A stretch of DNA of 64,000 bases from Clostridia bacterium. GTDB taxonomy: Bacteria; Bacillota; Clostridia; Oscillospirales; RGIG577. Shown in pieces: positions 1 to 19,452 of the stretch (position 1 is its first letter; each line of letters opens with the position of its first letter). The notes below the pieces were generated by a model. The model saw only the letters and a list, made by a program, of their open reading frames with translations, ran no database searches and was not told where the DNA came from. The translations under genes and the position numbers were made by a program. The DNA is taken from positions 1 to 64,000 of the forward strand of contig JAFWDJ010000012.1 in assembly GCA_017513095.1 (NCBI GenBank), in the 5' to 3' direction.

Positions 1-1296
1 GCTACCGCGTATACCGTAAGACGGGCACGGGCAAGTGGGAGACAGTATTGTCCTCCACGACGGCAACGTCGTACAAAGATGCGACCGTGACCGAAGGCAA
101 GACGTATTCGTATACTGTCCGCTCGAACGTGGGCAGCACGTGGAGCACGGGCTACGCAGACACGGCGAAGACGATAAAGGTTACGGCTGCGGCGGTTGAG
201 CCTGCGCCGGTGACGATAACGTCGATAAGTTATGCGAACGGCGCAGTTAGCCTCGCATGGCAGGGGCAGGACGGCGTTGACGGCTATCGCGTATACCGCA
301 AGACGGGCACGGGCAAGTGGGAGACAGTATTATCCTCCACAACGGCAACGTCGTACAAAGATACGACCGTGACCGAAGGCAAGACGTATTCGTATACAAT
401 CCGCTCGAACGTGGGCAGCACGTGGAGCACGGGCTACGCAGACACGGCGAAGACTATAACAACGAAGGCCGCAGTTGAGCCTGCGCCGGTGACGATAACG
501 TCGATAAGTTATGCGAACGGCGCAGTCAGCCTTGCATGGCAGGGGCAGGACGGCGTTGACGGCTATCGCGTATACCGCAAGACGGGCACGGGCAAGTGGG
601 AGACCGTATTATCCTCCACGACGGCAACGTCGTACAAAGATGCGACCGTGACCGAAGGCAAGACGTATTCGTATACAATCCGCTCGAAAGTCGGCAGCAC
701 GTGGAGCACGGGCTACGCCGACACGGCGAAGACTATAACAACGAAGGCGGCAGCAGAGCCTGCGCCGGTGACGATAACGTCGATTGCCTACGCGAACGGC
801 GCAGTCAGCCTTGCATGGCAGGGACAGGACGGCGTTGACGGTTATCGCGTATACCGCAAGACGGGCACGGGCAAGTGGACGACTGTGCTTTCATCCACAA
901 CGGCAACGTCGTACACGGATACGACGGTGACCGAGGGCACGACGTACAGCTATACTGTCCGCTCGAACGTGGGCAGCACGTGGAGCACCGGCTACGACGC
1001 TACGGCAAAGACGATAAAGGTTGCTCCCGCTGTACCCGCCGACGTGAACATAAACATGATAACGCAGAGCAGCACGGGCGGCATAAAAATAGCCTGGGAC
1101 GCTGCGGATAATGTCGACGGTTATCGTGTATACAAAAAGTCGGGCAGCGGAAGCTGGAAAACGGCTCTCTCCAACACAACCGATACGACGTTTACCGATA
1201 CCGACGTAACGCCCGGTGTGATGTATTACTATACGATACGCTCCGTAAAGGGCGGCGTATGGAGCACGGGCTACAACGACACCGCGAAGAGCTTCA
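1..1296 (+). repeat. 279-bp tandem FN3-coding repeat array
   Basis: The block coding for VDGYRVYRKTGTGKW recurs with exact 279-base spacing; for example, ggcgttga occurs at 273, 552 and 831. Neighbouring copies share identical runs far longer than 20 bases, while the last copy (about 1030-1296) is divergent. The period is 93 codons, so gain or loss of a unit stays in frame. A copy also lies across the left window edge. Confidence 0.9.
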
Positions 1297-4262
1297 GGGC
1301 GGGTACGCCAAAGCTTACGTTCAATAACGGAGAAGTGACCGGCATTTCAAATAAGAGCATAACCACTCTTGTCATACCGCAGTCGATAGACGGCATTGCC
1401 GTGACGAGCATAGCTAAAAATGCGTTCAGTTACTGCAGCAGCCTTACGTCGGTGACGATCCCGTCCGGCGTAACGAGCATAGGTTCCGGCGCGTTTAACA
1501 ACTGCAAGGCTCTTACTTCGGTAAATATAAGCGACGTTGGCGCATGGTGCGGTATAGACTTCGGCGGTTACAATGCTAATCCTCTGTATTATGCAAATCA
1601 TCTGTATCTTAACGGTAAAGAAATGACAAAGCTTGTGATACCCGAAGGTGTGACGAGTATAGGACGGTGTGCGTTCTATAGCTGCACCGGTCTTACGTCG
1701 GTGACGATACCGTCGAGCGTGACGAGCATTGGCTACTATGCGTTCTATGGCTGCAGCGGGCTTACGTCGGTGACGATCCCGTCGAGCGTGACGAGCATAG
1801 ACTACGGCGCGTTCGAGCACTGCACCGGACTTACGTCGATTAAGGTTGACGCAGACAATACGGCGTATACTTCGGTCAACGGCGTTTTATTCACAAAAGA
1901 TAAGAAAACGCTCGTGACGTATCCGGCAGGCAAAAGCGGAGCTTATACCATCCCGTCGAGCGTGACGAGCATAGGTGACAATGCGTTCGAGTACTGCAGC
2001 GGTCTTACGTCCGTAAAGATCCCGTCGAGCGTGACGAGCATAGGCGGAAGTGCATTCTGGGGCTGCGACGGTCTTACTTCGGTGACGATCCCGTCGAGCG
2101 TGACGAGCATAGGCGGAAGTGCGTTCGGCAACTGCGACGGCCTTACGACAGTTAAAATACCCGAGGGCGTGACGAGCATTGGGTGGTTTGCGTTCCAAGA
2201 CTGTGACGGCCTTACGTCGGTAACTATCCCGTCAAGCGTGACGAGCATAGACAGCTCTCCATTTTTAAACTGCGACGGGATTACGTCGATAAACGTTGCA
2301 TCGGGGAATACTGCGTATACTTCGGTCAACGGCGTTTTGTTTACGAAAGATATGAAAACTCTCGTTGAGTATCCGTGCGGCAAAGAAGGAACGTCATACG
2401 ATATCCCATCGGGCGTAACGAGCATAGGATCATCGTCATTCGAAGGCTGCAAAGGCCTTACGTCGGTGACGATACCCGAGGGCGTAACGAAAATAAGCGG
2501 CTATGCGTTTGAGTATTGCAGCGGCCTTACGTCGGTGACGATACCCGTGAGCGTGACATACATAAGCTGGGAAGCGTTCGCCGGATGTGAAAACCTGAAA
2601 GACGTATACTATACCGGCAACGATAAACAGTGGCGCAGCATAAACATAGAAGAGGATAATTACGAGCTGAGCTGGGCCACGCTCCATTGCAGCGGCCCGT
2701 ATGACCCCGGCTTCATATTCGAAGACGGTACGATACTTGGCGTAGAAGACATCGATATTACGAGCCTCATTATACCGGGCTCAATTAACGGCGAAAAAGT
2801 AACGGCTATCGGGCGTGAGGCGTTTGCGGCCTGCTACAATCTGACTTCGGTAACTATCCAGCCGGGCGTAGAGGAGATAGGCTACGGGGCGTTCGACGGA
2901 TGTTTCTATCTTTCGTCCGTAACTATCCCGTCGAGCGTAAAAATCATAGGCGACGAAGCGTTCTCGGGCTGCAGTCTTACTTCGATAAATATTCCGTCGG
3001 GCGTAACGAGCATAGGACATGATGCATTTCCGAGATACTGTCTTACTTCAATAAACGTGGATGCGGGCAATACGGAATACGCTTCCGCAGACGGCGTTTT
3101 ATTTACAAAGGACAAAAAGGTTCTCCTTATGTATCCGTGCGGCAAAGAAGGAACGTCATACGATATTCCGTCGGGCGTGACAGCCATAGGCGAGAATGCT
3201 TTCAATAACTGCCAAAGCCTTACGTCCGTAACTATCCCGTCGACCGTAATGTGTATATCGACAGGCGCATTCGAAGGCTGCGGCGTTACGTCGCTTACGA
3301 TACCGTACAGCGTGATGTGCATTTCTGATAATGCATTTGGTGAACGCTACTACGCTACGAGCATTACGGATATATACTACTCCGGCAGTGAAGAGAGATG
3401 GAACAGTATTTATCACGGACAACCCTGGAATATGCCGTTCACGCTTCACTGCACGGGCACGGGCGATCCGGTCGAAGAAAACTACTTTGATTTTGAAGCA
3501 AGCACCGGAACGATACTGGAATTCTGCGACCCGGATGCCGAAAGTGCGGTAATACCCGAAACGCTGTACGGAATAAAAATTAAGACAATAGGAAGCTATG
3601 CGTTTTACGATTGCTCCGAGCTTAAATCGATAACGATACCGCCGAGCATTAAGTATATAGAGCAGGGCGCGTTCAGCGGGTGTAATCTTCAGTCGGTCTA
3701 TATAAGCGATCTGGAAGCTTGGCTTAAGATAGACGCGCCAGGCGATCCGTTGTCTACGTTTATGTATGGCGCAGGCAAGCCGGCTGCGGACCTTTACGTA
3801 AACGGAACGCTTTTAACTGATCTGGTCATCCCGTCGAGCTTTACGAGCATAAACAATTTTGCAATGGCAGGATGCAGGAGCCTTAAGTCGGTGAGCATCC
3901 CGTCAAGCGTGACGAGTATAGGTGATGCTGCGTTCTGGGGCTGCAGCAATCTTACGTCGATAACCATCCCGTCGAGCGTGAAAAGAATAGGCGCCGGTGC
4001 GTTCGGAGGCTGCGGCTTTACATCGGTAGCTATCCCCTCGGGCGTGACAAGCATAGAGTCGTACACGTTCCTGGCATGCCAAAATCTCACATCGGTGACC
4101 ATACCGGCGAGTGTGACGATCATATGCCCGGGAGCGTTCGTTGGTAACGACAGCCTTACCGACGTATATTACGCTGGCACTCAGGCGCAGTGGGAGAGCA
4201 TAACAAAAGAATCAAATTCATCTCTCGACAGCGCCGCCATCCACTACAACAGCGCAAATTAA
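3..4262 (+). CDS. BspA-like LRR protein with N-proximal FN3 array (5' partial)
   Basis: The reading frame is open at the left window edge, so the N-terminus and any signal peptide lie outside; the frame runs from base 3 to the TAA at 4260-4262. Bases 3-1300 encode about five fibronectin-III-like modules marked by GYRVYRKTGTGKW and TYSYTVRS. Bases about 1310-4259 encode dozens of BspA/LRR_5-type repeats of about 23 residues built on LTSVTIPSSVTSIG..AF..C. Proteins of this kind are surface or secreted adhesin-like molecules. No LPXTG or SLH anchor is visible at the C-terminus, which ends SAAIHYNSAN. A hairpin terminator follows directly. The class is secure; the ligand and the true length are unknown. 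Confidence 0.9.
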   Translation, partial: YRVYRKTGTGKWETVLSSTTATSYKDATVTEGKTYSYTVRSNVGSTWSTGYADTAKTIKVTAAAVEPAPVTITSISYANGAVSLAWQGQDGVDGYRVYRKTGTGKWETVLSSTTATSYKDTTVTEGKTYSYTIRSNVGSTWSTGYADTAKTITTKAAVEPAPVTITSISYANGAVSLAWQGQDGVDGYRVYRKTGTGKWETVLSSTTATSYKDATVTEGKTYSYTIRSKVGSTWSTGYADTAKTITTKAAAEPAPVTITSIAYANGAVSLAWQGQDGVDGYRVYRKTGTGKWTTVLSSTTATSYTDTTVTEGTTYSYTVRSNVGSTWSTGYDATAKTIKVAPAVPADVNINMITQSSTGGIKIAWDAADNVDGYRVYKKSGSGSWKTALSNTTDTTFTDTDVTPGVMYYYTIRSVKGGVWSTGYNDTAKSFRAGTPKLTFNNGEVTGISNKSITTLVIPQSIDGIAVTSIAKNAFSYCSSLTSVTIPSGVTSIGSGAFNNCKALTSVNISDVGAWCGIDFGGYNANPLYYANHLYLNGKEMTKLVIPEGVTSIGRCAFYSCTGLTSVTIPSSVTSIGYYAFYGCSGLTSVTIPSSVTSIDYGAFEHCTGLTSIKVDADNTAYTSVNGVLFTKDKKTLVTYPAGKSGAYTIPSSVTSIGDNAFEYCSGLTSVKIPSSVTSIGGSAFWGCDGLTSVTIPSSVTSIGGSAFGNCDGLTTVKIPEGVTSIGWFAFQDCDGLTSVTIPSSVTSIDSSPFLNCDGITSINVASGNTAYTSVNGVLFTKDMKTLVEYPCGKEGTSYDIPSGVTSIGSSSFEGCKGLTSVTIPEGVTKISGYAFEYCSGLTSVTIPVSVTYISWEAFAGCENLKDVYYTGNDKQWRSINIEEDNYELSWATLHCSGPYDPGFIFEDGTILGVEDIDITSLIIPGSINGEKVTAIGREAFAACYNLTSVTIQPGVEEIGYGAFDGCFYLSSVTIPSSVKIIGDEAFSGCSLTSINIPSGVTSIGHDAFPRYCLTSINVDAGNTEYASADGVLFTKDKKVLLMYPCGKEGTSYDIPSGVTAIGENAFNNCQSLTSVTIPSTVMCISTGAFEGCGVTSLTIPYSVMCISDNAFGERYYATSITDIYYSGSEERWNSIYHGQPWNMPFTLHCTGTGDPVEENYFDFEASTGTILEFCDPDAESAVIPETLYGIKIKTIGSYAFYDCSELKSITIPPSIKYIEQGAFSGCNLQSVYISDLEAWLKIDAPGDPLSTFMYGAGKPAADLYVNGTLLTDLVIPSSFTSINNFAMAGCRSLKSVSIPSSVTSIGDAAFWGCSNLTSITIPSSVKRIGAGAFGGCGFTSVAIPSGVTSIESYTFLACQNLTSVTIPASVTIICPGAFVGNDSLTDVYYAGTQAQWESITKESNSSLDSAAIHYNSAN

Positions 4263-6298: not shown

Positions 6299-9200
6299 AT
6301 GAAGAAAAAAGCTCTTTGTTTTATTCTTTCACTTATATTGACGATTACCCTTCTGCCTGCCGCGGGACTGGCGGCTGATCGGGTGACGTGCGAGATTAAC
6401 GGAGTGAAGATATACTTCGATAAGTCCACGGGAATTATTGAAGGCTTGGCCGGAGACTATTACGGAAATATGGGCGACGTAGTCATCCCGTCCGAGATAG
6501 ACGGTACGGCGGTGAAGGGCATAGCGAGATACGCATTCTTCAACGGCTACTATCAGCAGGCGGAAATACAAAGCCTCGTTTTGCCCGAAGGCATCGAAAG
6601 CGTGGGAGACGGGGCATTCGGCGGTCAGAATAAGATGAATACTCTCGTTCTGCCCGCAAGCCTCACGAATCTGGGCAGCCGCGCGTTTGTCGGAAGCGGT
6701 CTTTCTGCGCCGGTTTTCCCTGCGGGGATAAAGGTCATACCCGAAGCGCTTTACGCGTGGTCGAGGACCCTTGCATCGGCGACGATACCCGACGGAGTCG
6801 AAACGATAGGTCCCGGCGCGTTCGCGGGCTGCAAGGCGCTTGAGTACGTGGAGATACCCGTAAGCGTGACGTCCATAGGCTCGTATGCGTTCGGTTACGC
6901 CGGAAACGAAGAGGATTATATCACATACGGCTCATATGAGTATCTGGCGGATTACTACATGGTTTACGGCATTATGGGCTGCGAAAGCTTAAGCGACGTT
7001 TACTACGCCGGAAGCAGAGAGCAGTGGGAGAGCATTTCGATAGCCATCGGCAACGAAGCTCTTCTTAATGCGGACGTGCATTTTTACTCCACGCATGACA
7101 GCGTAAACGACGCCGACACTGTAAAATTTGCCGTTACGGGCGGCAATGTCACGTTCGACCCGCAAAGCGGCCTTATAACCGACGCGGACGCGACCGTGAC
7201 CGAGGCCGATATACCCGCGTACATAAACGAAACGGCGGTCACGGGCATAGCGGGCTCGGCATTTTCGGAATGCACCCTGCTTGAACGGGTAAGCCTTCCC
7301 GAGGGCGTTCTGAGCATAGGCAGAAACGCGTTCTATAACTGCACGAAGCTTGGAAAGACAGCTCTCCCCGAAAGCCTTGAAAGCATAGGCGACTATGCCT
7401 TTTCGGGCTGCGCTTCGCTTGTGTGCATCCATCTGCCCGCAGCGGCGGTAAATCTCAGCGATTATGCGTTTTACGGGTTTAACGGCCTTAAATATATAAA
7501 CATCCCCGAGGGCGTGAGCAGAATTGGAAAGAATATGTTCAGCGGATGCGCCGCTCTTTCGGCCGTTTATATCCCAAAGAGCATGACGCAGATAGAAAAC
7601 AGCTCATTTCTTAAGGCGCAAAAGCTTAGCGACGTTTTCTACGGCGGCACACAGGCCGAGTGGACGGCCGCTTCGCTCAATGTGGGAAAAACGGTATCCA
7701 TGCACTTCGCCATCTCGGACGATTCGGCGTTTCTTTTCGATGAAAACGGCTACCTCTATTTCGACAAGGGCACGGGTACGCTTCTTGCATCGGACAATAT
7801 GATAACGCGGGCCGACGTGCCGGATGAGATTGATGGAGCAAGTGTGACAGCCGTTGCGGACAAGGCCTTTTTCGAGCGCAAAGAGCTTAAGTATGCGAGC
7901 CTGCCCGACAGCGTCGTATCCATCGGCTCGAATGCTTTTAACGGCTGCAAGCGTCTTGGTACGCTGAATTTGCCCGCGTCGCTTATTGATATGGGCGAAG
8001 GCACGTTTTCGAAATGCTCGGCGCTTAAAGAGATAACCGTGCCGGACGGCGTTAAGTATTTGGAGGAAAACGTGTTCTCGGAGTGTACCTCGCTTAAAAG
8101 CGTTTCCCTTCCCGCGGGACTTAAGGAAATAGGCAGTGAGGCGTTTTACGGCTGTACCTCGCTTGAGACGGCAGACCTTCCCGATACCGTCGAGACCATA
8201 GGCTATGAGGCATTCAGATACTGCAAAATGCTTTCGGCCGTTACGGTGCCCTCGGGCGTAAAGTCGGTAAGCGAATACGCATTTTCCGGATGCACCTCGC
8301 TTTCGAGCGCGTCGCTTGAAGACGGCGTCGTTTCTGTCGGAGAATATGCCTTCTCGAGCTGCACCTCGCTTTCCGAATTAACTCTGCCCGAAAGCCTTAA
8401 GGATATAGGCACGGCGGCATTTTCGGGCTGCACCTCGCTTACTGCCGCAGGAATGGAAGAAGGTCTTACCAGCATCGGACAAAGCGCTTTTTCGGGCTGC
8501 ACGTCGCTTGTTTCGGCAGACATACCCGATACGGTGAGGTCTATGGGCACTGGTGCATTTTCGGGCTGCTCCTCGCTTGTTTCGGCAGATCTGCCCGAAG
8601 GTATCGCCGCCGTTGAAAAGAATACGTTCAAGGACTGCGTTTCGCTTAAGACGGTATCCATCCCGGTGCGCGTAAGAACGATAGACGAATACGCCTTTTA
8701 CGGCTGCGTAAAGCTTGCCGACGTAAATTACGGCGGCAGCAGCGACGAGTGGGACAGCGTCGTTGTAAAGAGCAACAATACGCCGCTTTTGCTTGCAAAT
8801 ATGCACTTTGAAGAAGAAGAGCCCGCACAACCTATGCCCGTGAATATAACGTCGCTTGTATATGAAAACGGCGCGGTATCCATGACGTGGGAGCCGCAGG
8901 ACGGTGTCGACGGATTCCGCGTATACCGTAAGACGGGCACGGGCAAGTGGACGACGATGCTTTCGTCGACGACGGGCACTTCGTTTACCGACAACGACGT
9001 AAAATCGGGCGTAACGTACACGTACACGGTCCGTTCGTATGTCGGAAATAACTTCAGCACGGACTATACGGCTACGGCAAGGAGCATAAAGACGGTTAAT
9101 ACGACGGAGCCGCTGCCCGTAACGATAACGTCGCTTGTATATGAAAACGGCGCGGTATCCATGACGTGGGAGGCTCAGGACGGCGTCGACGGATTCCGCG

Positions 9201-10222
9201 TATACCGTAAGACGGGCACGGGCAAATGGACGACGGTGCTTTCGTCGACGACAGCCGCTTCGTTTACCGACAACGACGTAAAAGCGGGCGTGACGTATAC
9301 GTACACGGTCCGTTCGTATGTCGGAAATAACTTCAGCACGGACTATGCGGCTACGGCAATGAGCATAAAGACGGTTAATACGACGGAGCCGCTGCCCGTA
9401 ACGATAACGTCGCTTGTATACGAAAACGGCGCGGTTTCGCTCGAATGGCAGGCTCAGGACGGCGTCGACGGCTACCGCGTATACAGAAAGACGGGCTCAG
9501 GCAAATGGACGACGGTGCTTTCGTCGACGACCGACACGTCGTTTACCGATAATGACGTAAGAGAAGGCGCGACGTACGCGTATACGGTGCGCTCGTTCGT
9601 GGGCAGCAAATACAGCACCGACTACGCGGCGACGGCGAAGAGTGTAATCACGGTCGTACCCATAGAGCCGCTGCCCGTTACGATAACAAGTTTAACGCAG
9701 TCGGGCGATTCGGTCATCCTCCTGTGGGATGCGCAGGAAGGCGCGGACGGCTATCGCGTATACCGTAAGACGGGCACGGGGAAGTGGACGACGGTGCTCT
9801 ACGATACGACGGGCACGTCGTTTATAGATACGAACGTGACCGCGGGCAAAACGTACACATATACGGTGCGCTCACACGTGGGCAGCAAATACAGCGCGGG
9901 CTACAACGATACGGCAAAGGTGATAAAGGTCGTGTCGACTGCGAAGCCCGTCCCCGTGACGATATCGAAGCTGACTCAATCAGGAGGCGCGGTCGTTCTC
10001 ATGTGGGATGCGGCGGACGGCGTTGACGGCTACCGCGTATACCGTAAGACGGGCACGGGCAAATGGGTGACGGTGCTTTCGTCCACCACGGGCACAAGCT
10101 TTGTCGATACGAACGTGACGGCAGGTAAAACGTACACGTACACGGTACGCTCGTTCGTAGGCAGCGAATACAGCACCGATTACGCCGACACGGCACAGTC
10201 GATAAAGGTAACGGCGGATTGA
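6299..10222 (+). CDS. BspA-like LRR protein with C-terminal FN3 array
   Basis: A 1307-residue secreted protein. A Sec signal peptide is clear (MKKKALCFILSLILTI... ending LAAD, about 25 residues). Residues about 30-840 are BspA-type LRR_5 repeats such as IGSEAFYGCTSLE and VGEYAFSSCTSLSEL, in several blocks separated by strand-rich linkers. Residues about 845-1307 are five fibronectin-III-like modules of 93 residues each. No SLH, LPXTG or membrane anchor follows. The domain order (LRR then FN3) is opposite to that of the gene at 3-4262. Such proteins act at the cell surface in adhesion or binding. It has its own promoter and terminator and so is monocistronic. Confidence 0.92.
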   Translation: MKKKALCFILSLILTITLLPAAGLAADRVTCEINGVKIYFDKSTGIIEGLAGDYYGNMGDVVIPSEIDGTAVKGIARYAFFNGYYQQAEIQSLVLPEGIESVGDGAFGGQNKMNTLVLPASLTNLGSRAFVGSGLSAPVFPAGIKVIPEALYAWSRTLASATIPDGVETIGPGAFAGCKALEYVEIPVSVTSIGSYAFGYAGNEEDYITYGSYEYLADYYMVYGIMGCESLSDVYYAGSREQWESISIAIGNEALLNADVHFYSTHDSVNDADTVKFAVTGGNVTFDPQSGLITDADATVTEADIPAYINETAVTGIAGSAFSECTLLERVSLPEGVLSIGRNAFYNCTKLGKTALPESLESIGDYAFSGCASLVCIHLPAAAVNLSDYAFYGFNGLKYINIPEGVSRIGKNMFSGCAALSAVYIPKSMTQIENSSFLKAQKLSDVFYGGTQAEWTAASLNVGKTVSMHFAISDDSAFLFDENGYLYFDKGTGTLLASDNMITRADVPDEIDGASVTAVADKAFFERKELKYASLPDSVVSIGSNAFNGCKRLGTLNLPASLIDMGEGTFSKCSALKEITVPDGVKYLEENVFSECTSLKSVSLPAGLKEIGSEAFYGCTSLETADLPDTVETIGYEAFRYCKMLSAVTVPSGVKSVSEYAFSGCTSLSSASLEDGVVSVGEYAFSSCTSLSELTLPESLKDIGTAAFSGCTSLTAAGMEEGLTSIGQSAFSGCTSLVSADIPDTVRSMGTGAFSGCSSLVSADLPEGIAAVEKNTFKDCVSLKTVSIPVRVRTIDEYAFYGCVKLADVNYGGSSDEWDSVVVKSNNTPLLLANMHFEEEEPAQPMPVNITSLVYENGAVSMTWEPQDGVDGFRVYRKTGTGKWTTMLSSTTGTSFTDNDVKSGVTYTYTVRSYVGNNFSTDYTATARSIKTVNTTEPLPVTITSLVYENGAVSMTWEAQDGVDGFRVYRKTGTGKWTTVLSSTTAASFTDNDVKAGVTYTYTVRSYVGNNFSTDYAATAMSIKTVNTTEPLPVTITSLVYENGAVSLEWQAQDGVDGYRVYRKTGSGKWTTVLSSTTDTSFTDNDVREGATYAYTVRSFVGSKYSTDYAATAKSVITVVPIEPLPVTITSLTQSGDSVILLWDAQEGADGYRVYRKTGTGKWTTVLYDTTGTSFIDTNVTAGKTYTYTVRSHVGSKYSAGYNDTAKVIKVVSTAKPVPVTISKLTQSGGAVVLMWDAADGVDGYRVYRKTGTGKWVTVLSSTTGTSFVDTNVTAGKTYTYTVRSFVGSEYSTDYADTAQSIKVTAD
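8830..10218 (+). repeat. 279-bp tandem FN3-coding repeats, five copies
   Basis: The motif coding for GxRVYRKTGTGKW starts at 8911, 9190, 9469, 9748 and 10027, exactly 279 bases apart each time. The first two copies are nearly identical over most of their length; later ones diverge modestly. The period matches that of the array at 1-1296. Confidence 0.92.
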
Positions 10223-10275: not shown

Positions 10276-12006
10276 TTACCCGTTATGCTTTTTGCCGGAT
10301 GTGCGGTCGCCTTTTGTCTTCTTTTTGCCGCCGGAGAGACCGAAGCGAGAGGGCTTCTTATTCGCCGTGCCGGGCTTTGCGCCCTTTTTCGCGGACGGCT
10401 GCGTCTTATTTGCCGCCTTTGGATGAAGCGAGGTCGTTTTGATGGTCTTGTTGTGCGGATACGGCGCACGCTTTACCGTGCCCGCCGCCTTTTTTGCGCG
10501 TCCTGCGTTCTGCTCCGGAGTATGCGGCATTCTCGTCGCGTTTCGCGGACGATTGGGTACCGACTGCGCAGGCTGCGCCGACTGCGGCGGAGCGGGACGG
10601 CTTTGCGGCGCGTTCTTTTGCGGCGCTCTCTTTTTCGCGGCGCTCTTTGAGCCGCCGCGCGCGGCGGGCGGCGCGTTTTTAATTTGCCTGTTCGCCTTCG
10701 CGCGCTCGTTTCGCTTAAGCGAGCGCCTGAGAAGATACACGTATCCCACCGCCAGCACAAGAAGGATTATAAGTATCACCCTGACGGCGGTAAACGAAAA
10801 GAACGTCTTAATCCAGTAGCCGATCTTGAGAAGAATATTCGCGCGGATCGTCTCCTCGGAGGTAAGCGTTCCCGTAACTATAAGCACGTCGTTGTCGTAG
10901 ACCTCGAAGGTGCCAAGAGGCTCGCCTTCGCTTATCGGGGCCATGATATGCTCCTTCGGGAAAAGCTTTATCGTTATCTCTTCCTCGTTCTTATCTTTCG
11001 GAATAACGGTGCTCACGTCGTCCTTTGACACGAGCGAGATATAATCCTTTTCAAGCGAATGATCGAGCCGCTCCTCCGTCATTATCTCGCCCTTTTTGAC
11101 GATGTTGAGTATCTTATACGAGGCGTATGCCTCTCTGAAAATGTTCTCCGCGTCCTTCATGGCGGGAAGCGCGTATTTGCTGTTCTCGCCGCTCGTGCCC
11201 GCGCCGATGAATATGAGCGTCATGGAGCCGCGCCCGCGCGAGGCGACGCCCGCCATCACGCTGCCCGACGTGCTCGACGAGCCGCCTATGAGTCCGTCCG
11301 CGTAGCGGTAATAATAGCTCGTGTTCTTATACGTCGAGATAAGGTGGTCGTTCGTGTAGAACTTCTTCTTTTTCTCGCGCCATTCGCTCGGGGGCAGGGT
11401 ATAGCTCTTCGTCGCGGCTATCTCCATAAGCAGCTTGCTCTGGGTGAAGTAGTCGGCGATTATGTACATATCCCACACGGTGGAATACTGCTCAACGTCG
11501 TTTTGGCCCGTGGCGTTCGTGAAATTAGTGTTCTGGGCGCCGATGAACTGCGCCTTTTCAGTCATGCTGCGGGCGAAATCCGCCTCTGAGCCCGAGATGT
11601 GCTCCGCTATCGCGGCGGCGGCCGCGTCGTTGTTGTCAAGTATCATGCAGTATAAAAGCTGCCGCAGGGTAAGCTGTTCTCCGATTTTGAATTTTACGTT
11701 CGCGCCGTAGAAGTTTTTTTCCGTCGCGGCCGTCTCGGATATCGTGACGACGTCGTCGAGGATGCCGTATTCCACAGCGATTATCGCCGTCATAAGCTTC
11801 GTAAGCTCGCCGGGGACGATGCGGTCGTTTATGTTTTTCTGATATATTACCGTGTCGGTCGTTGCCTCCACCAATATCGCGTTTTTCGACGCGACCGAAA
11901 AGGGCGCGCCATTGCTTACGCTGCCCTCCGCGCATACAAGGAGCGGAAAGACGAGCGCTGTAATAAGCAATATCGAAAGAAGGGCATATATTTTAAGCTT
12001 TTTCAT
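10276..12006 (-). CDS. DacF/DacA-like D,D-carboxypeptidase homologue with degenerate active site (predicted pseudoenzyme)
   Basis: A 576-residue protein from ATG 12006, chosen because GGAGA precedes it; the ATG at 12030 lacks a ribosome site. Order: signal peptide or anchor (1-26), peptidase S11 fold (about 40-305), C-terminal beta domain typical of low-mass PBPs (about 306-400), a membrane segment (about 405-426), then a 150-residue Lys/Arg/Ala/Pro-rich tail. The fold is recognisable from KNAILVEATTDTVIYQKN and NDAAAAAIAEHISGS, but the three catalytic motifs are altered. SxxK reads ELTK (67-70), SxN reads DNN (124-126), and KTG reads IGG (240-242). The nucleophilic serine and the KTG lysine are therefore missing. 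The rest is intact and has no frameshift, suggesting a retained non-enzymatic role such as peptidoglycan binding or scaffolding (inference). Confidence 0.88.
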   Translation of the reverse strand: MKKLKIYALLSILLITALVFPLLVCAEGSVSNGAPFSVASKNAILVEATTDTVIYQKNINDRIVPGELTKLMTAIIAVEYGILDDVVTISETAATEKNFYGANVKFKIGEQLTLRQLLYCMILDNNDAAAAAIAEHISGSEADFARSMTEKAQFIGAQNTNFTNATGQNDVEQYSTVWDMYIIADYFTQSKLLMEIAATKSYTLPPSEWREKKKKFYTNDHLISTYKNTSYYYRYADGLIGGSSSTSGSVMAGVASRGRGSMTLIFIGAGTSGENSKYALPAMKDAENIFREAYASYKILNIVKKGEIMTEERLDHSLEKDYISLVSKDDVSTVIPKDKNEEEITIKLFPKEHIMAPISEGEPLGTFEVYDNDVLIVTGTLTSEETIRANILLKIGYWIKTFFSFTAVRVILIILLVLAVGYVYLLRRSLKRNERAKANRQIKNAPPAARGGSKSAAKKRAPQKNAPQSRPAPPQSAQPAQSVPNRPRNATRMPHTPEQNAGRAKKAAGTVKRAPYPHNKTIKTTSLHPKAANKTQPSAKKGAKPGTANKKPSRFGLSGGKKKTKGDRTSGKKHNG

Positions 12007-12031
12007 GCGTTCTCCGATTTTTGAAATCATG

Positions 12032-12088: not shown

Positions 12089-12169
12089 TTGTTATTTTTA
12101 ATGATATCAGATTTACATAATAATTTAAAGCCCTTTTTGTAATTTTTCGTGATTTTAAGCGGTGATACG

Positions 12170-12538
12170 ATGAAAAAGCTCGACAATTCGCATAAGGCGC
12201 TGCTTATATGCGTGTTCGCATTTATAATATATATCGCGGCAAGCTGTACGTTTTCGTTTTTCTCGTTCGAGCGTACGGACGTCTCCGACCGCGAGCCGCT
12301 CGCCGCAGCAACGGAGGACGAGAGCCCCGCGCAATACGGCGGGGAGCCGGTAAACATAAATACGGCGGGGAAGTACGAGCTTGAACGTCTGCCCGGCGTA
12401 AGCGAGGCGACGGCCCGGAAGATAATCGAGTTCCGCGAGGAGTACGGCGCATTTGAAAGCGCTGAAGAAATAATGCTCGTCTCGGGCATCGGTGAGAAAA
12501 AGTTCGAGGCTATGCGCGAATATATCACGGTGGATTAA
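12170..12538 (+). CDS. ComEA-like membrane-anchored helix-hairpin-helix DNA-binding protein
   Basis: A 122-residue protein from ATG 12170 (weak site GGTGAT). One N-terminal membrane segment (about residues 10-33) is followed by an acidic linker. A C-terminal double helix-hairpin-helix (about 60-120) follows, with NINTAGKYELERLPGVSEATARKI and VSGIGEKKFEAM in the ComEA arrangement. Known ComEA proteins bind incoming double-stranded DNA on the outer membrane face during transformation. The SLBB domain of some relatives is absent. The only other competence gene here is the truncated comF, so a working uptake system cannot be assumed. Confidence 0.85.
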   Translation: MKKLDNSHKALLICVFAFIIYIAASCTFSFFSFERTDVSDREPLAAATEDESPAQYGGEPVNINTAGKYELERLPGVSEATARKIIEFREEYGAFESAEEIMLVSGIGEKKFEAMREYITVD

Positions 12539-12584: not shown

Positions 12585-15146
12585 TTACTTCGCCTTTATC
12601 GACTTCGCCGTGTCATTGTAGCCCGAGCTGTACGTGCTTCCGATGAACGAGCGCACCGTATACTTGTACGTCGTGCCCGCCGTTACATTCGTATCGATGA
12701 ACATCGTGTCCGTCGTCGACGCGCAGACCGTCGTCCACTTGCCTGAGCCCGTCTTGCGGTATACGCGGTAGCCGTCCACGCCGGGAGCGGCGTTCCACGA
12801 CAGCACGACCATGCCGCCGGTCGACTGTATCGAGCTTATCGTTACCGCCGGAGGCTCCGCCGCGGATGCCGCCGTCACTTTGATCGACTTTGCCGTATCG
12901 TTGTAGCCCGTGCTGTATTCGCTTCCGACGAATGAACGGACGGTATACGTGTACGTTGTGCCCTCGGTCACCGCCGTATCGGTGTAAGCCGCTGCGGTAG
13001 TAGATGCAACAAGCGTAGTCCACTTGCCGGAGCCCGTCTTCTTATGCACTCGGTAGCCGTCGACGCCGCTTTGCGGCTGCCATGCGAGTACGACCGCGCC
13101 GTTTACGCACTTGATGGACGTTATCGCAACGGGGGACGGCTCAACGGCCGATCCGGTGACTTTTATCGACTTCGCGGTGTCGTTGTAGCCCGTGCTGTAC
13201 GCGCTGCCCACGAACGAACGGACGGTATATGAATACGTAGTGCCCGCCGTCACTGCCGTGTCGGTGTAAGCCGTTGCGGTGGTGGATGCAACGAGCGTAG
13301 TCCACTTGCCGGAGCCCGTCTTTCTGTAGAGACGGTATCCGTCAACACCATCCTCTGCGTCCCATGCGAGTACGACCGCACCGTTTTTGCAAGCAATCGA
13401 ATTTATCGTAACAGGAGTAGGTTCGGCCGTTTTCGGTACGGTTATCGACTTCGCCGTGTCGTTGTAGTCGGTGCTGTATTCGCTGCCTACATACGAACGG
13501 ACGGTATAGGTATATTTAGTGCCCGGTGTTACGTCGGTGTCGATGAAGCTTGTCGCGGCAGTAGATGCGCAAACGGTCTTCCAACCGCCTGTGCCCGTCT
13601 TCTTATATACGCGATAGCCGTCTATGCCGTTTGCCGCGCTCCATTCAAGCGATACGTTGCCGTTTACGAACGTTACAGAGGTTATCGTTACCGCAACGGG
13701 CTGCGCTTCGGGCATTGTCGTATTATAACGCACGTTTGCATTAATAAGCGGATCATTGCCGCTTTGGATGTCTATTCGGTTCCATTCGGCCGCGCTGCCC
13801 GCGTAGTAAACATTTGTAAGACCCGAACACAGTATAAAGGCCGAATCGTCAATCAGCATTACTTTTTTCGGGATGTTTATCCGCTTTATGCTCTTGCAGT
13901 TATAAAACGTCCTTGCGCCTATTTTGCTTATGCCATCGGGAAGCGTTATATCGGTAAGTGCGGTGCACATTCTGAAGGCATAATCGCCTATCGAAGTCAC
14001 CGTGGAGGGAACCTTTACGCTCGTAAGAGCGCCGCAGCCGTAAAAGGCGCCGTTTCCGATACTTTCAACTCCGTTGGGCAGCGTTACGGATTTCAGTTTT
14101 TTTAGATTCGTGAATGCATTTTCCCCCACGGCTTTAACGCTTATGCCCTCTATCTTTGCGGGAATATCGGCCGCCGTTACTGATGCGTCCGCGCCCGTTA
14201 TTGTGCCGGTTGCCGTATCAAGATAGATGTTGCCGCCCGTTACCGGGTATGCAAGCTCCATGGGGATAACGGACCAATGGGCGTAAAATGTCGTATTTCC
14301 TGTTATCACAGTATCTTTGGTTATTTTTGTGCCGCCCGAGGCCGATGTATACCAGCCGTCAAAGGAATAGAATTGTCTTTCGGGAATGGGAAGCTCGCCT
14401 ACAGCCGTTTTGTACTCGACACGGCTTGACGCCGGTGATACAGAGCCGCCTGCCGCATCCCATGTTACAGTATAATATGATTTTTCCGAGAAATGGATAG
14501 TTGCGTTCTTAAGGCATTCGTTTTCCTTTGCTATTGAAATGGACTGCCACTGTGCGCGGTTTCCCCCAAAATATACATCGCCTAAGGCTTCACAGCCTTT
14601 GAATGCGGAAGCACTGATTGTTTTTACGCTTTTTGGAATGAAGACGGATGTCATGCGTGTACAGTCCAAAAACGACGATGCGCCTAGGGTGACAACATCA
14701 TCGGGGACAGCGCATTCGCCTGATTTTCCTCTGGGACATCTTAAAAGTGTTTTTTTATCATAACTTAAAAGCATACCATTCATCGATGAATATGCGTAAG
14801 AACCCTCAAAGTTTATGGATATAAGGTTGGGACAGTTGTGAAAGCGAGTCTCTATTCTTGTCACTGGTAGATTGTTTATTTTGGCAGGTATGGTCACCTC
14901 CGTAACGGTGCTGTCGGCCGAAAGTATTTTTAACTCTGGTGTCAGGGTAAATGTTGCGCCGCCTTCGTCGTCATATTCCCAGCCATACTCGTCATCAGCC
15001 CACGAGGGGATATCATAAAATGAAGTGTAATATATATTTCCGCCGACGACGGGATATGAGGGCGAGTCTTGCGCAAGGCCCGTGACAGGCAGGAACGCAA
15101 TGACCATGCAAAGCAAGCTGATAAGCGATATAAGCTGTCGTTTCAT
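12585..15146 (-). CDS. BspA-like LRR protein with InlB-type B repeat and FN3 array
   Basis: An 853-residue secreted protein. Signal peptide MKRQLISLISLLCMVIAFLP ends near residue 25; the ATG at 15146 follows a GGGGG site. In order: short LRR_5 block (about 75-215) and a Listeria-Bacteroides/InlB-type repeat (about 225-290, VTWDAAGGSVSP, FDGWYT, FYAHW). A second LRR_5 block (about 300-465) and four FN3-like modules (about 475-853) follow. The FN3 modules are the same type as in the two genes to the left but are encoded on the opposite strand. No anchoring domain is visible. It is transcribed from its own promoter just past parC. Confidence 0.92.
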   Translation of the reverse strand: MKRQLISLISLLCMVIAFLPVTGLAQDSPSYPVVGGNIYYTSFYDIPSWADDEYGWEYDDEGGATFTLTPELKILSADSTVTEVTIPAKINNLPVTRIETRFHNCPNLISINFEGSYAYSSMNGMLLSYDKKTLLRCPRGKSGECAVPDDVVTLGASSFLDCTRMTSVFIPKSVKTISASAFKGCEALGDVYFGGNRAQWQSISIAKENECLKNATIHFSEKSYYTVTWDAAGGSVSPASSRVEYKTAVGELPIPERQFYSFDGWYTSASGGTKITKDTVITGNTTFYAHWSVIPMELAYPVTGGNIYLDTATGTITGADASVTAADIPAKIEGISVKAVGENAFTNLKKLKSVTLPNGVESIGNGAFYGCGALTSVKVPSTVTSIGDYAFRMCTALTDITLPDGISKIGARTFYNCKSIKRINIPKKVMLIDDSAFILCSGLTNVYYAGSAAEWNRIDIQSGNDPLINANVRYNTTMPEAQPVAVTITSVTFVNGNVSLEWSAANGIDGYRVYKKTGTGGWKTVCASTAATSFIDTDVTPGTKYTYTVRSYVGSEYSTDYNDTAKSITVPKTAEPTPVTINSIACKNGAVVLAWDAEDGVDGYRLYRKTGSGKWTTLVASTTATAYTDTAVTAGTTYSYTVRSFVGSAYSTGYNDTAKSIKVTGSAVEPSPVAITSIKCVNGAVVLAWQPQSGVDGYRVHKKTGSGKWTTLVASTTAAAYTDTAVTEGTTYTYTVRSFVGSEYSTGYNDTAKSIKVTAASAAEPPAVTISSIQSTGGMVVLSWNAAPGVDGYRVYRKTGSGKWTTVCASTTDTMFIDTNVTAGTTYKYTVRSFIGSTYSSGYNDTAKSIKAK
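12588..13700 (-). repeat. Tandem FN3-coding repeats, four copies, inverted relative to neighbours
   Basis: Minus-strand modules coding VDGYRxY.KTGxGxW recur at intervals of 285, 282 and 279 bases (landmark cggtagccgt-like at 12766, 13051, 13333, 13612). They are related in sequence to the plus-strand arrays at 1-1296 and 8830-10218. Confidence 0.88.
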
Positions 15147-17453: not shown

Positions 17454-19436
17454 TTAAGACAGGTCGGCTAAATCGATGTACTTATAGCCGTTTTCGGCGA
17501 TGAAGTCTTTGCGCCCCGCGAGATTGTCGCCCAAAAGCACGTCGAACATCTTAAACGTAGCGTCCGTGTCCTCGGGCATTACGCGGATGAGCCGCCTCGT
17601 TTCGGGGCTCATCGTAGTTTCCCACATCATGTCTGGCGTATTTTCGCCGAGTCCCTTCGAGCGCATTATCTTATACTTTTTATTGCCGAGCTTCTTTATT
17701 ATCTCGTTTTTGTCCTTTTCGGTGTACGCAAAGTGCGACTTGTCGCCGACGCGGATTTCAAAAAGCGGCGATTCCGCGATGTATACGCGCCCTTCTTTTA
17801 TAAGCGTCGGCGTGAGGCGGTAGAGCATGCTTAAAATAAGCGTGCGTATCTGATAGCCGTCGACGTCGGCGTCGGTGCAGATTATTATCTTGCTCCACCT
17901 GAGATTGTTCAAATCAAACTCGCTTGCGGCGTTCTTGCCCTTCAGCTTTACCTCCACGCCGCAGCCGAGCACTTTTATAAGGTCGGTTATGATATCGTTT
18001 TTGAATATCTTGTCAAGGTCGGCCTTAAGGCAGTTTAATATCTTGCCGCGCACGGGGATTATCGCCTGAAAAGAGGCGTCGCGCCCGAGCTTACAGGAGG
18101 TGAGCGCGGAGTCGCCCTCCACGATGTAAAGCTCGCGCTGTGACACGTCCTTCGAGCGGCAGTCGACGAATTTCTGCACGCGGTTCTGTATGTCGAGATT
18201 GCCCGAGAGCTTCTTTTTTATATCGAGGCGCGCGCGCTCCGCCGATTCGCGCGAACGCTTGTTTACGAGTATCTGATTCGTTATCTTTTCTGCCTCGGCC
18301 TTGTTCTCGATGAAGAATATCATCAACTTTTCGCGGATGAACGCAGTCATGGCCTCGGCGATGAATTTGTTGTTTATAGACTTTTTCGTCTGATTCTCGT
18401 ACGACGGGTTCGTCGAGAACGTATTCGTAACGCAGATAAGGCTGTCCTCAACGTCGGAAAAGCCAATCTTTGGCTCCGACTTGTTGTATTTGCCGTTCTG
18501 CTTTAAATATGCGTCTATCTCCGACACGAATGCCGAACGCACGGCGCGGTCGGGCGAGCCGCCGTATTCGAGCCAGCTTGAATTGTGGTAATGCTCGATA
18601 TGGCTGCCGCTTACAAGAAACGTGAACGCGAACTGGATTTTCAGCTTATAGTCGGGCTTGTCGGCGCGGTCGCGTCCAACGCGGTCGCACTCGAAATACT
18701 GCGTCGGGCACATCGGCGCGTTCCCCTCGCACATCTCGTCGATATACTGAGTTATGCCGCGCTCGTAGCAGAAGCTTTCCTCCGTCGGCTCGTCCTTCGT
18801 TTCGTCGCGGAAGGTAAACGAAATGCCGGCGTTGCACACGGCCTGACGGCGCAGTACGTCGGTGAAATACTCCGACGGAACGTCGATATCCGTGAATACG
18901 TCGCGGTCTGGCTTCCACGTTATGAGCGTGCCCGTTTTGTTCTTCTTAAGCGGCTCTTTTTTAAGCCCGCCTACGTTCTCACCGCGCTCGAAGTGAAGCG
19001 AGAACTTCGTCATGTCGCGGTAAACGGTTACGTCCATATATTCGGAGGCGTACTGCGTGGAGCAGGCGCCGAGTCCGTTTAAGCCGAGCGAGAACTCGTA
19101 GTTTTCGCCGCTGTCGTTATTGTATTTTCCTCCGGCGTAGAGCTCGCAGAAGACAAGCTCCCAGTTGTAGCGTCCCTCGCGCTCGTTGTAATCGAGCGGG
19201 ATGCCGCGGCCGAAGTCCTCGACCGTGATGGAGCCGTCCTTATGCTTCGTTACGTTTATTTTTGAGCCGTAGCCCTCTTTTGCCTCGTCTATCGAGTTCG
19301 AAAGTATCTCAAATACGGCGTGCTGACAGCCGACGACGTCGTTGGAGCCGAATATAACGGAGGGCCGTAAGCGAACGCGGTCCGCGCCCTTTAGTGATGA
19401 TATGGAGTCGTTGTCGTACGTTTTTTTCGCGCTTAT
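17454..19436 (-). CDS. parE: Topoisomerase IV subunit B-type protein (ParE/GyrB family), probable AUA start
   Basis: The 660-residue ATPase subunit. The GHKL ATP-binding domain (about residues 1-200) shows EILSNSIDEA, DFGRGIP and LGLNGLGAC. The Toprim domain has EGDSA near residue 440 and TDADVDG near 523. The first in-frame ATG, at 19037, would delete most of the ATPase domain, so it is not the start. Upstream the frame stays open to a TGA at 19443-19445 but contains no ATG, GTG or TTG. The best start is ATA at 19434-19436, giving xSAKKTYDND, six bases after a 9-of-10 match to the full Shine-Dalgarno. An assembly error turning ATG into ATA is the main alternative. A consensus promoter precedes it. 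Confidence 0.88.
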   Translation of the reverse strand: MSAKKTYDNDSISSLKGADRVRLRPSVIFGSNDVVGCQHAVFEILSNSIDEAKEGYGSKINVTKHKDGSITVEDFGRGIPLDYNEREGRYNWELVFCELYAGGKYNNDSGENYEFSLGLNGLGACSTQYASEYMDVTVYRDMTKFSLHFERGENVGGLKKEPLKKNKTGTLITWKPDRDVFTDIDVPSEYFTDVLRRQAVCNAGISFTFRDETKDEPTEESFCYERGITQYIDEMCEGNAPMCPTQYFECDRVGRDRADKPDYKLKIQFAFTFLVSGSHIEHYHNSSWLEYGGSPDRAVRSAFVSEIDAYLKQNGKYNKSEPKIGFSDVEDSLICVTNTFSTNPSYENQTKKSINNKFIAEAMTAFIREKLMIFFIENKAEAEKITNQILVNKRSRESAERARLDIKKKLSGNLDIQNRVQKFVDCRSKDVSQRELYIVEGDSALTSCKLGRDASFQAIIPVRGKILNCLKADLDKIFKNDIITDLIKVLGCGVEVKLKGKNAASEFDLNNLRWSKIIICTDADVDGYQIRTLILSMLYRLTPTLIKEGRVYIAESPLFEIRVGDKSHFAYTEKDKNEIIKKLGNKKYKIMRSKGLGENTPDMMWETTMSPETRRLIRVMPEDTDATFKMFDVLLGDNLAGRKDFIAENGYKYIDLADLS

Positions 19437-19452
19437 TTTAGGTCACATCCTT
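19434..19452 (-). promoter_or_regulatory. Extended Shine-Dalgarno and non-canonical start of parE
   Basis: On the minus strand AAGGATGTGA (19443-19452) matches AAGGAGGTGA at nine of ten positions and is followed by CCTAAA and then ATA. An in-frame ATG within the site is immediately followed by TGA, so it cannot serve. Confidence 0.7.

Follow-up and report, generated by a model that had tools for sequence, protein, structure and literature searches.

The window, by which we mean the whole 64,000-nucleotide stretch of DNA analyzed, comes from a gut Clostridia bacterium and carries a gene for a membrane-anchored homolog of the peptidase S11 D,D-carboxypeptidases, arranged divergently with a small gene of the helix-hairpin-helix (HHH) type (Table 1). 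The S11 gene starts with an ATG that agrees with the start of its ortholog in a sister species (G001), and an alternative upstream ATG at 12030 would give a product of 584 amino acids. The open reading frame and the shared start bear out the intact 576-codon frame proposed in the preliminary description of this DNA. The same divergent S11-HHH pair is present in G001. The window also encodes three LRR_5 surface proteins of the BspA type, all of them very large (48-4262, 6299-10222 and 12585-15146); the genes at 6299-10222 and 12585-15146 flank the S11 locus, and neither of these two is found at the matching place in G001, where the order is a thioesterase gene followed by the S11, HHH and ParC genes.

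Table 1. Features of the S11 locus, with residues numbered in the 576-codon frame.
Feature	Coordinates	Strand	Basis and remarks
S11 pseudoenzyme (very likely inactive), coding sequence	10276..12006	minus	576 codons; open reading frame, start as in the G001 ortholog, Pfam S11 and PBP5_C
Predicted signal peptide, ~residues 1-26	11929..12006	minus	Hydrophobic N-terminus in both orthologs; modeled helix, residues 2-23
Peptidase S11 domain, ~residues 36-285	11152..11901	minus	Pfam PF00768, PBP5 fold, dN/dS 0.05
ELTK at the SxxK position, residues 67-70	11797..11808	minus	Alignments; nucleophile Ser replaced by Glu, Lys retained
NND at the SxN position, residues 125-127	11626..11634	minus	Ungapped alignment
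IGG at the KTG position, residues 240-242	11281..11289	minus	Alignments
PBP5_C beta domain, ~residues 301-387	10846..11106	minus	Pfam PF07943; strands in the model
C-terminal transmembrane (TM) helix, residues 406-428	10723..10791	minus	Hydropathy and modeled helix; same position in 134 relatives
Basic tail, probably cytoplasmic, residues 429-576 (148 aa)	10279..10722	minus	44% identity to the ortholog
Small TM and HHH (ComEA-like) gene	12149..12538	plus	Pfam HHH_3; divergent from the S11 gene

The Peptidase_S11 profile matches the protein at 1.2e-36 (126.8 bits, against a cut-off of 27.6) and the PBP5_C profile at 7e-10, while the top phmmer matches among PDB sequences are Bacillus subtilis DacB and Pseudomonas PBP5. 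An AlphaFold2 model of residues 1-429, made from an input of 80 sequences, has a mean pLDDT of 89.2 and a pTM of 0.81 and contains the TM helix. Comparison with the PDB by Foldseek gave PBP5, PBP6 and DacB as the best hits, with target TM-scores mostly of about 0.74-0.88 and an E-value to PBP5 as low as 1.3e-31. Profile match and fold thus both place the protein in the S11 homologous family, and the PBP5-like fold, C-terminal beta domain and membrane anchor described earlier are all recovered. The usual anchor of PBP5 is amphipathic; here it is instead a true TM helix, lying 341 residues after the SxxK position, so that the protein has the arrangement of a PBP5_C domain followed by a single C-terminal TM helix at the spacing conserved in its relatives. 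From the signal peptide and single TM helix, the tail is probably on the cytoplasmic side; its last 149 residues include 39 Lys or Arg and three Asp or Glu, with a pI of ~12.

All three catalytic motifs are replaced. ELTK stands in place of SxxK and IGG in place of KTG, as had been read previously. The loss of SxN was also called correctly, but the letters given for it, DNN, begin one residue early: the ungapped pairing of LLYCM-IL-D-N-N-D with LLYCM-LL-P-S-A-N sets the SxN position at NND. This alignment is gap-free from LLYCM through AEH, with Asn125 under the serine and Asp127 under the asparagine, and both residues of SxN are therefore exchanged. An intact set of motifs elsewhere in the protein, which would have spoken against the claim, is absent from residues 1-430; K[TS]G does not occur in this segment, and S..K occurs at 224 and 317 only, both outside the active-site helix. 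Of the hallmarks of an active DD-carboxypeptidase, namely SxxK with a nucleophilic serine, SxN or SxC, and KTG or KSG, the protein has none. In the S11 enzyme PBP7 of Escherichia coli, changing the SxxK serine, the SxN serine or the KTG lysine to alanine abolished binding of Bocillin-FL in each case (PMC11586513). Since each of these three residues is exchanged in the window protein, its sequence makes it very likely that DD-peptidase activity has been lost, and by analogy with the PBP7 mutants covalent acylation by beta-lactams would be expected to be absent.

Conservation within the genus was compared across three species: the window genome, G001, which has the only assembled ortholog, and G002. 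The G001 ortholog, 72% identical overall, carries the identical ELTK, NND and IGG replacements. Identity is 87.2% in the S11 domain (dN/dS ~0.05) and 80.0% in the beta domain (dN/dS 0.063), and falls to 62% in the TM segment and 44% in the tail; these dN/dS values are rough because dS is near saturation (pS ~0.67) and they come from a single ortholog pair. Amino-acid identity, a comparison independent of synonymous saturation, can be set against that of two intact S11 paralogs, which over their whole length are 75.5% (dN/dS 0.139) and 66.9% (dN/dS 0.189) identical between the same two species. An ortholog with the same replacements and an S11 domain 87% identical, conserved above both intact paralogs, argue against decay and support the earlier proposal of selection for a non-catalytic role. 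The G002 assembly has no copy of the gene. This absence is uninformative and gives no real evidence of gene loss, since the contig stops just before the locus: ParC reaches within two bases of its end, and the adjacent YkoF-like and HHH genes are lacking too.

The two paralogs in the window genome read SVTK/SAN/KTG and SMTK/SGN/KTG, the latter with SLH repeats, and can supply the enzymatic function. Among 28 paralogous loci from 20 genomes of the order, mostly carriers of an altered TM-anchored member, SxxK and KTG are intact in 28 of 28, and one locus has SGS instead of SxN.

Matches to the window protein at E <= 1e-30 occur in 250 of the 295 genomes of the order. About 150 of the best matches were read, and in 134 a TM helix lies at the conserved distance; all motifs are kept in 95 of the 134 and some change is seen in 39, counts that are not unbiased frequencies because the proteins were taken in order of their similarity to the window protein. 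The change goes beyond conservative swaps (SxC and KSG being allowed) in 33/134, the KTG lysine is lost in 24/134 and the SxxK serine in 10/134. Misalignment is an unlikely cause of the motif loss, since the same alignment finds intact motifs in these 95 TM-anchored proteins and in almost every other paralog. The serine-less TM-anchored proteins fall in nine families (f1, f10, f11, f13, f14, f16, f17, f23 and f26), and the residue that replaces serine in the ten is Glu, Asn, Asp, Ala or Cys. The preliminary description had allowed that only this copy might be degenerate; instead, loss of catalytic residues recurs within the group in many parts of the order. As to conservation of the new motifs among homologs, which it proposed to check, ELTK, NND and IGG are kept in G001, and the other serine-less lineages have no common new motif. 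A divergent HHH neighbor accompanies 33/95 intact and 6/40 altered loci, in families that include f1, f12, f15 and f17, and supports positional orthology of the window gene with the intact genes; at 39/135 loci in total, HHH linkage was rejected as a feature common to the whole group.

In a tree from which the motif columns had been left out, the window protein lies among the TM-anchored rows and outside 13 paralog rows, its deep placement being unsure on account of a long stem. On this tree the serine state requires ten changes (including one extra copy outside the TM-anchored set) and the intact or altered state 11. Constraining the ten TM-anchored rows without the serine to a single group changed the log-likelihood by -231 units (AU p 1.1e-9), and a single origin of all serine losses was rejected. 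Altered TM-anchored proteins in other families (for example L021, L088, L090, L100, L055, L077 and L139) have likewise lost residues with frame and TM helix kept, and the replacement residues differ among such proteins, which indicates that the losses were mostly separate. In one genome (G256, locus L142), a partly altered TM-anchored copy is accompanied in tandem by a second S11 copy, whose three motifs read ND/GR/KFG.

In the sample, every TM-anchored member of one clade (f6, f10, f11, f16, f17, f19 and f20) is altered; inclusion of the window lineage in this clade was neither favored nor rejected (AU p 0.468). The clade keeps SxxK almost throughout, and from its motifs we describe it as altered rather than inactive, as catalysis may persist. 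A direct search of a genome-contig collection with the window protein gave no relatives. In a separate collection of named genomes, mostly metagenome-assembled genomes labeled Clostridia, Clostridiales or Oscillospiraceae, relatives of the clade have N or S for the KTG lysine in 80/80 proteins read, and it is only this KTG change that is independent of the search, the search patterns having been taken from the SxxK and GxN segments. A large TM-anchored clade of gut Clostridia (L191-L270) keeps SxxK, with GxN (in some, SxN) and N[A/S]G for KTG, a consistency that suggests an active site remodeled and not lost.

The closest known counterparts of the window protein are the canonical TM-anchored S11 proteins of the order, of DacA/DacF type, which share its domain order, a TM helix ~341 residues after SxxK, its tree and, in many, the divergent HHH neighbor; unlike it they keep SxxK, SxN and KTG, and identity is just ~24-36%. 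E. coli DacA (PBP5) and B. subtilis DacB have the same fold and PBP5_C domain, and differ in that all three catalytic motifs are replaced in the window protein. SCO4439 of Streptomyces coelicolor likewise joins an S11 domain to a TM region and a further domain, but is an active enzyme, inhibited by penicillin, and its further domain is a putative regulator (PMC4751497). Dead wall-hydrolase domains that act as regulators are established among the degenerate LytM proteins EnvC and DipM (PMC10336132); these have the unrelated M23 fold, not the S11/PBP5 fold, so that their likeness to the window protein would be functional only.

Taken together, the retained fold and anchor, the replacement of three motifs, their sharing with a sister species, strong purifying selection, the intact paralogs and the recurrence of loss suggest that the protein is a membrane-anchored DD-carboxypeptidase homolog that no longer acts as an enzyme and has been retained because it serves the cell envelope in a non-catalytic way, a reading to which we assign a probability of about 0.6. 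The protein would be exported, with its S11 and beta domains outside the membrane, where a stem peptide or another wall enzyme might bind to the former substrate cleft or to the surface of the domain; such binding could position or regulate the synthesis or hydrolysis of the wall, much as DipM and EnvC regulate hydrolases, and the basic tail may touch a cytoplasmic partner. Midcell localization of PBP7 is independent of its activity (PMC11586513). The weak conservation of the tail counts against this non-catalytic envelope role, and, as Glu67, Lys70, Asn125 and Asp127 are polar, a different chemistry is conceivable from the sequence. The main rival, which we consider unlikely, takes the protein for an envelope sensor, a receptor rather than a scaffold, whose dead S11 domain would bind peptidoglycan fragments or stem peptides and signal through the TM helix to the basic tail. 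The single TM helix with its 148-residue basic tail is consistent with such a receptor, as is SCO4439, in which a TM region connects S11 with a putative regulator domain (PMC4751497), and tails longer than 60 residues are found in 7/39 altered against 1/95 intact TM-anchored proteins (Fisher p 0.0007, with kinship ignored and some of the proteins interrelated); however, Pfam recognizes no domain in the tail, which shares only 44% identity with that of G001, and most altered members have tails of ~20 residues.

That ExxK, NND and IGG together make up a novel active site, with a different chemistry or substrate, appears quite improbable: the serine nucleophile and the KTG lysine are both gone, and the other serine-less lineages carry Ala, Asn, Asp or Cys with no common new motif, even though the replaced positions are identical in the G001 ortholog and the consistent SxxK, GxN and N[A/S]G of a related clade suggest motif remodeling beyond loss. 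A decaying pseudogene or assembly artefact would account for the deviation of all three motifs from the family consensus, yet is hardly credible given an intact frame with the same changes in two independent assemblies and a dN/dS of 0.05 in the S11 domain; the overall identity of 72% excludes the G001 ortholog as a contaminant from the same genome. For the non-catalytic envelope role, our best reading at the level of the group is that a wall-binding or regulatory type of protein arose repeatedly from one anchored DD-carboxypeptidase. The chances seem to us even that the anchored lineage had an ancestral non-catalytic function independent of the enzymatic one, and dropped catalysis at least nine times with fold, anchor and frame kept, the window protein being among the most altered.

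Descriptions of S11 low-molecular-mass PBPs usually center on enzyme activity, and redundancy often leaves single knockouts with weak phenotypes. The recurrent loss of catalytic residues with the rest kept provides a natural separation-of-function set, in which comparison of active and dead orthologs would reveal the non-catalytic job; repeated loss across the order suggests that the group has such a second, non-enzymatic job. No description of an S11 pseudoenzyme was found in the open-access literature searched, in which the fold and dead wall enzymes as regulators are known and the recurrent S11 case is apparently unreported. As a warning, annotation pipelines and profile matches call such dead proteins D-alanyl-D-alanine carboxypeptidases and beta-lactam targets.

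A further observation in the window concerns a ParE-like gene (17454-19443, minus strand), whose frame contains no ATG, GTG or TTG start codon upstream of a Met at 19037. Its frame opens directly after an in-frame TGA in all three species (the window, L162 in G001 and L278 in G002), in the context AAGGATGTGA(C/T)CT(A/G)AAATAAGCGC, which corresponds to an AUG-UGA start-stop and, after it, a conserved AUA codon. The arrangement suggests that translation either initiates at AUA, a non-canonical start, or is controlled by the start-stop.
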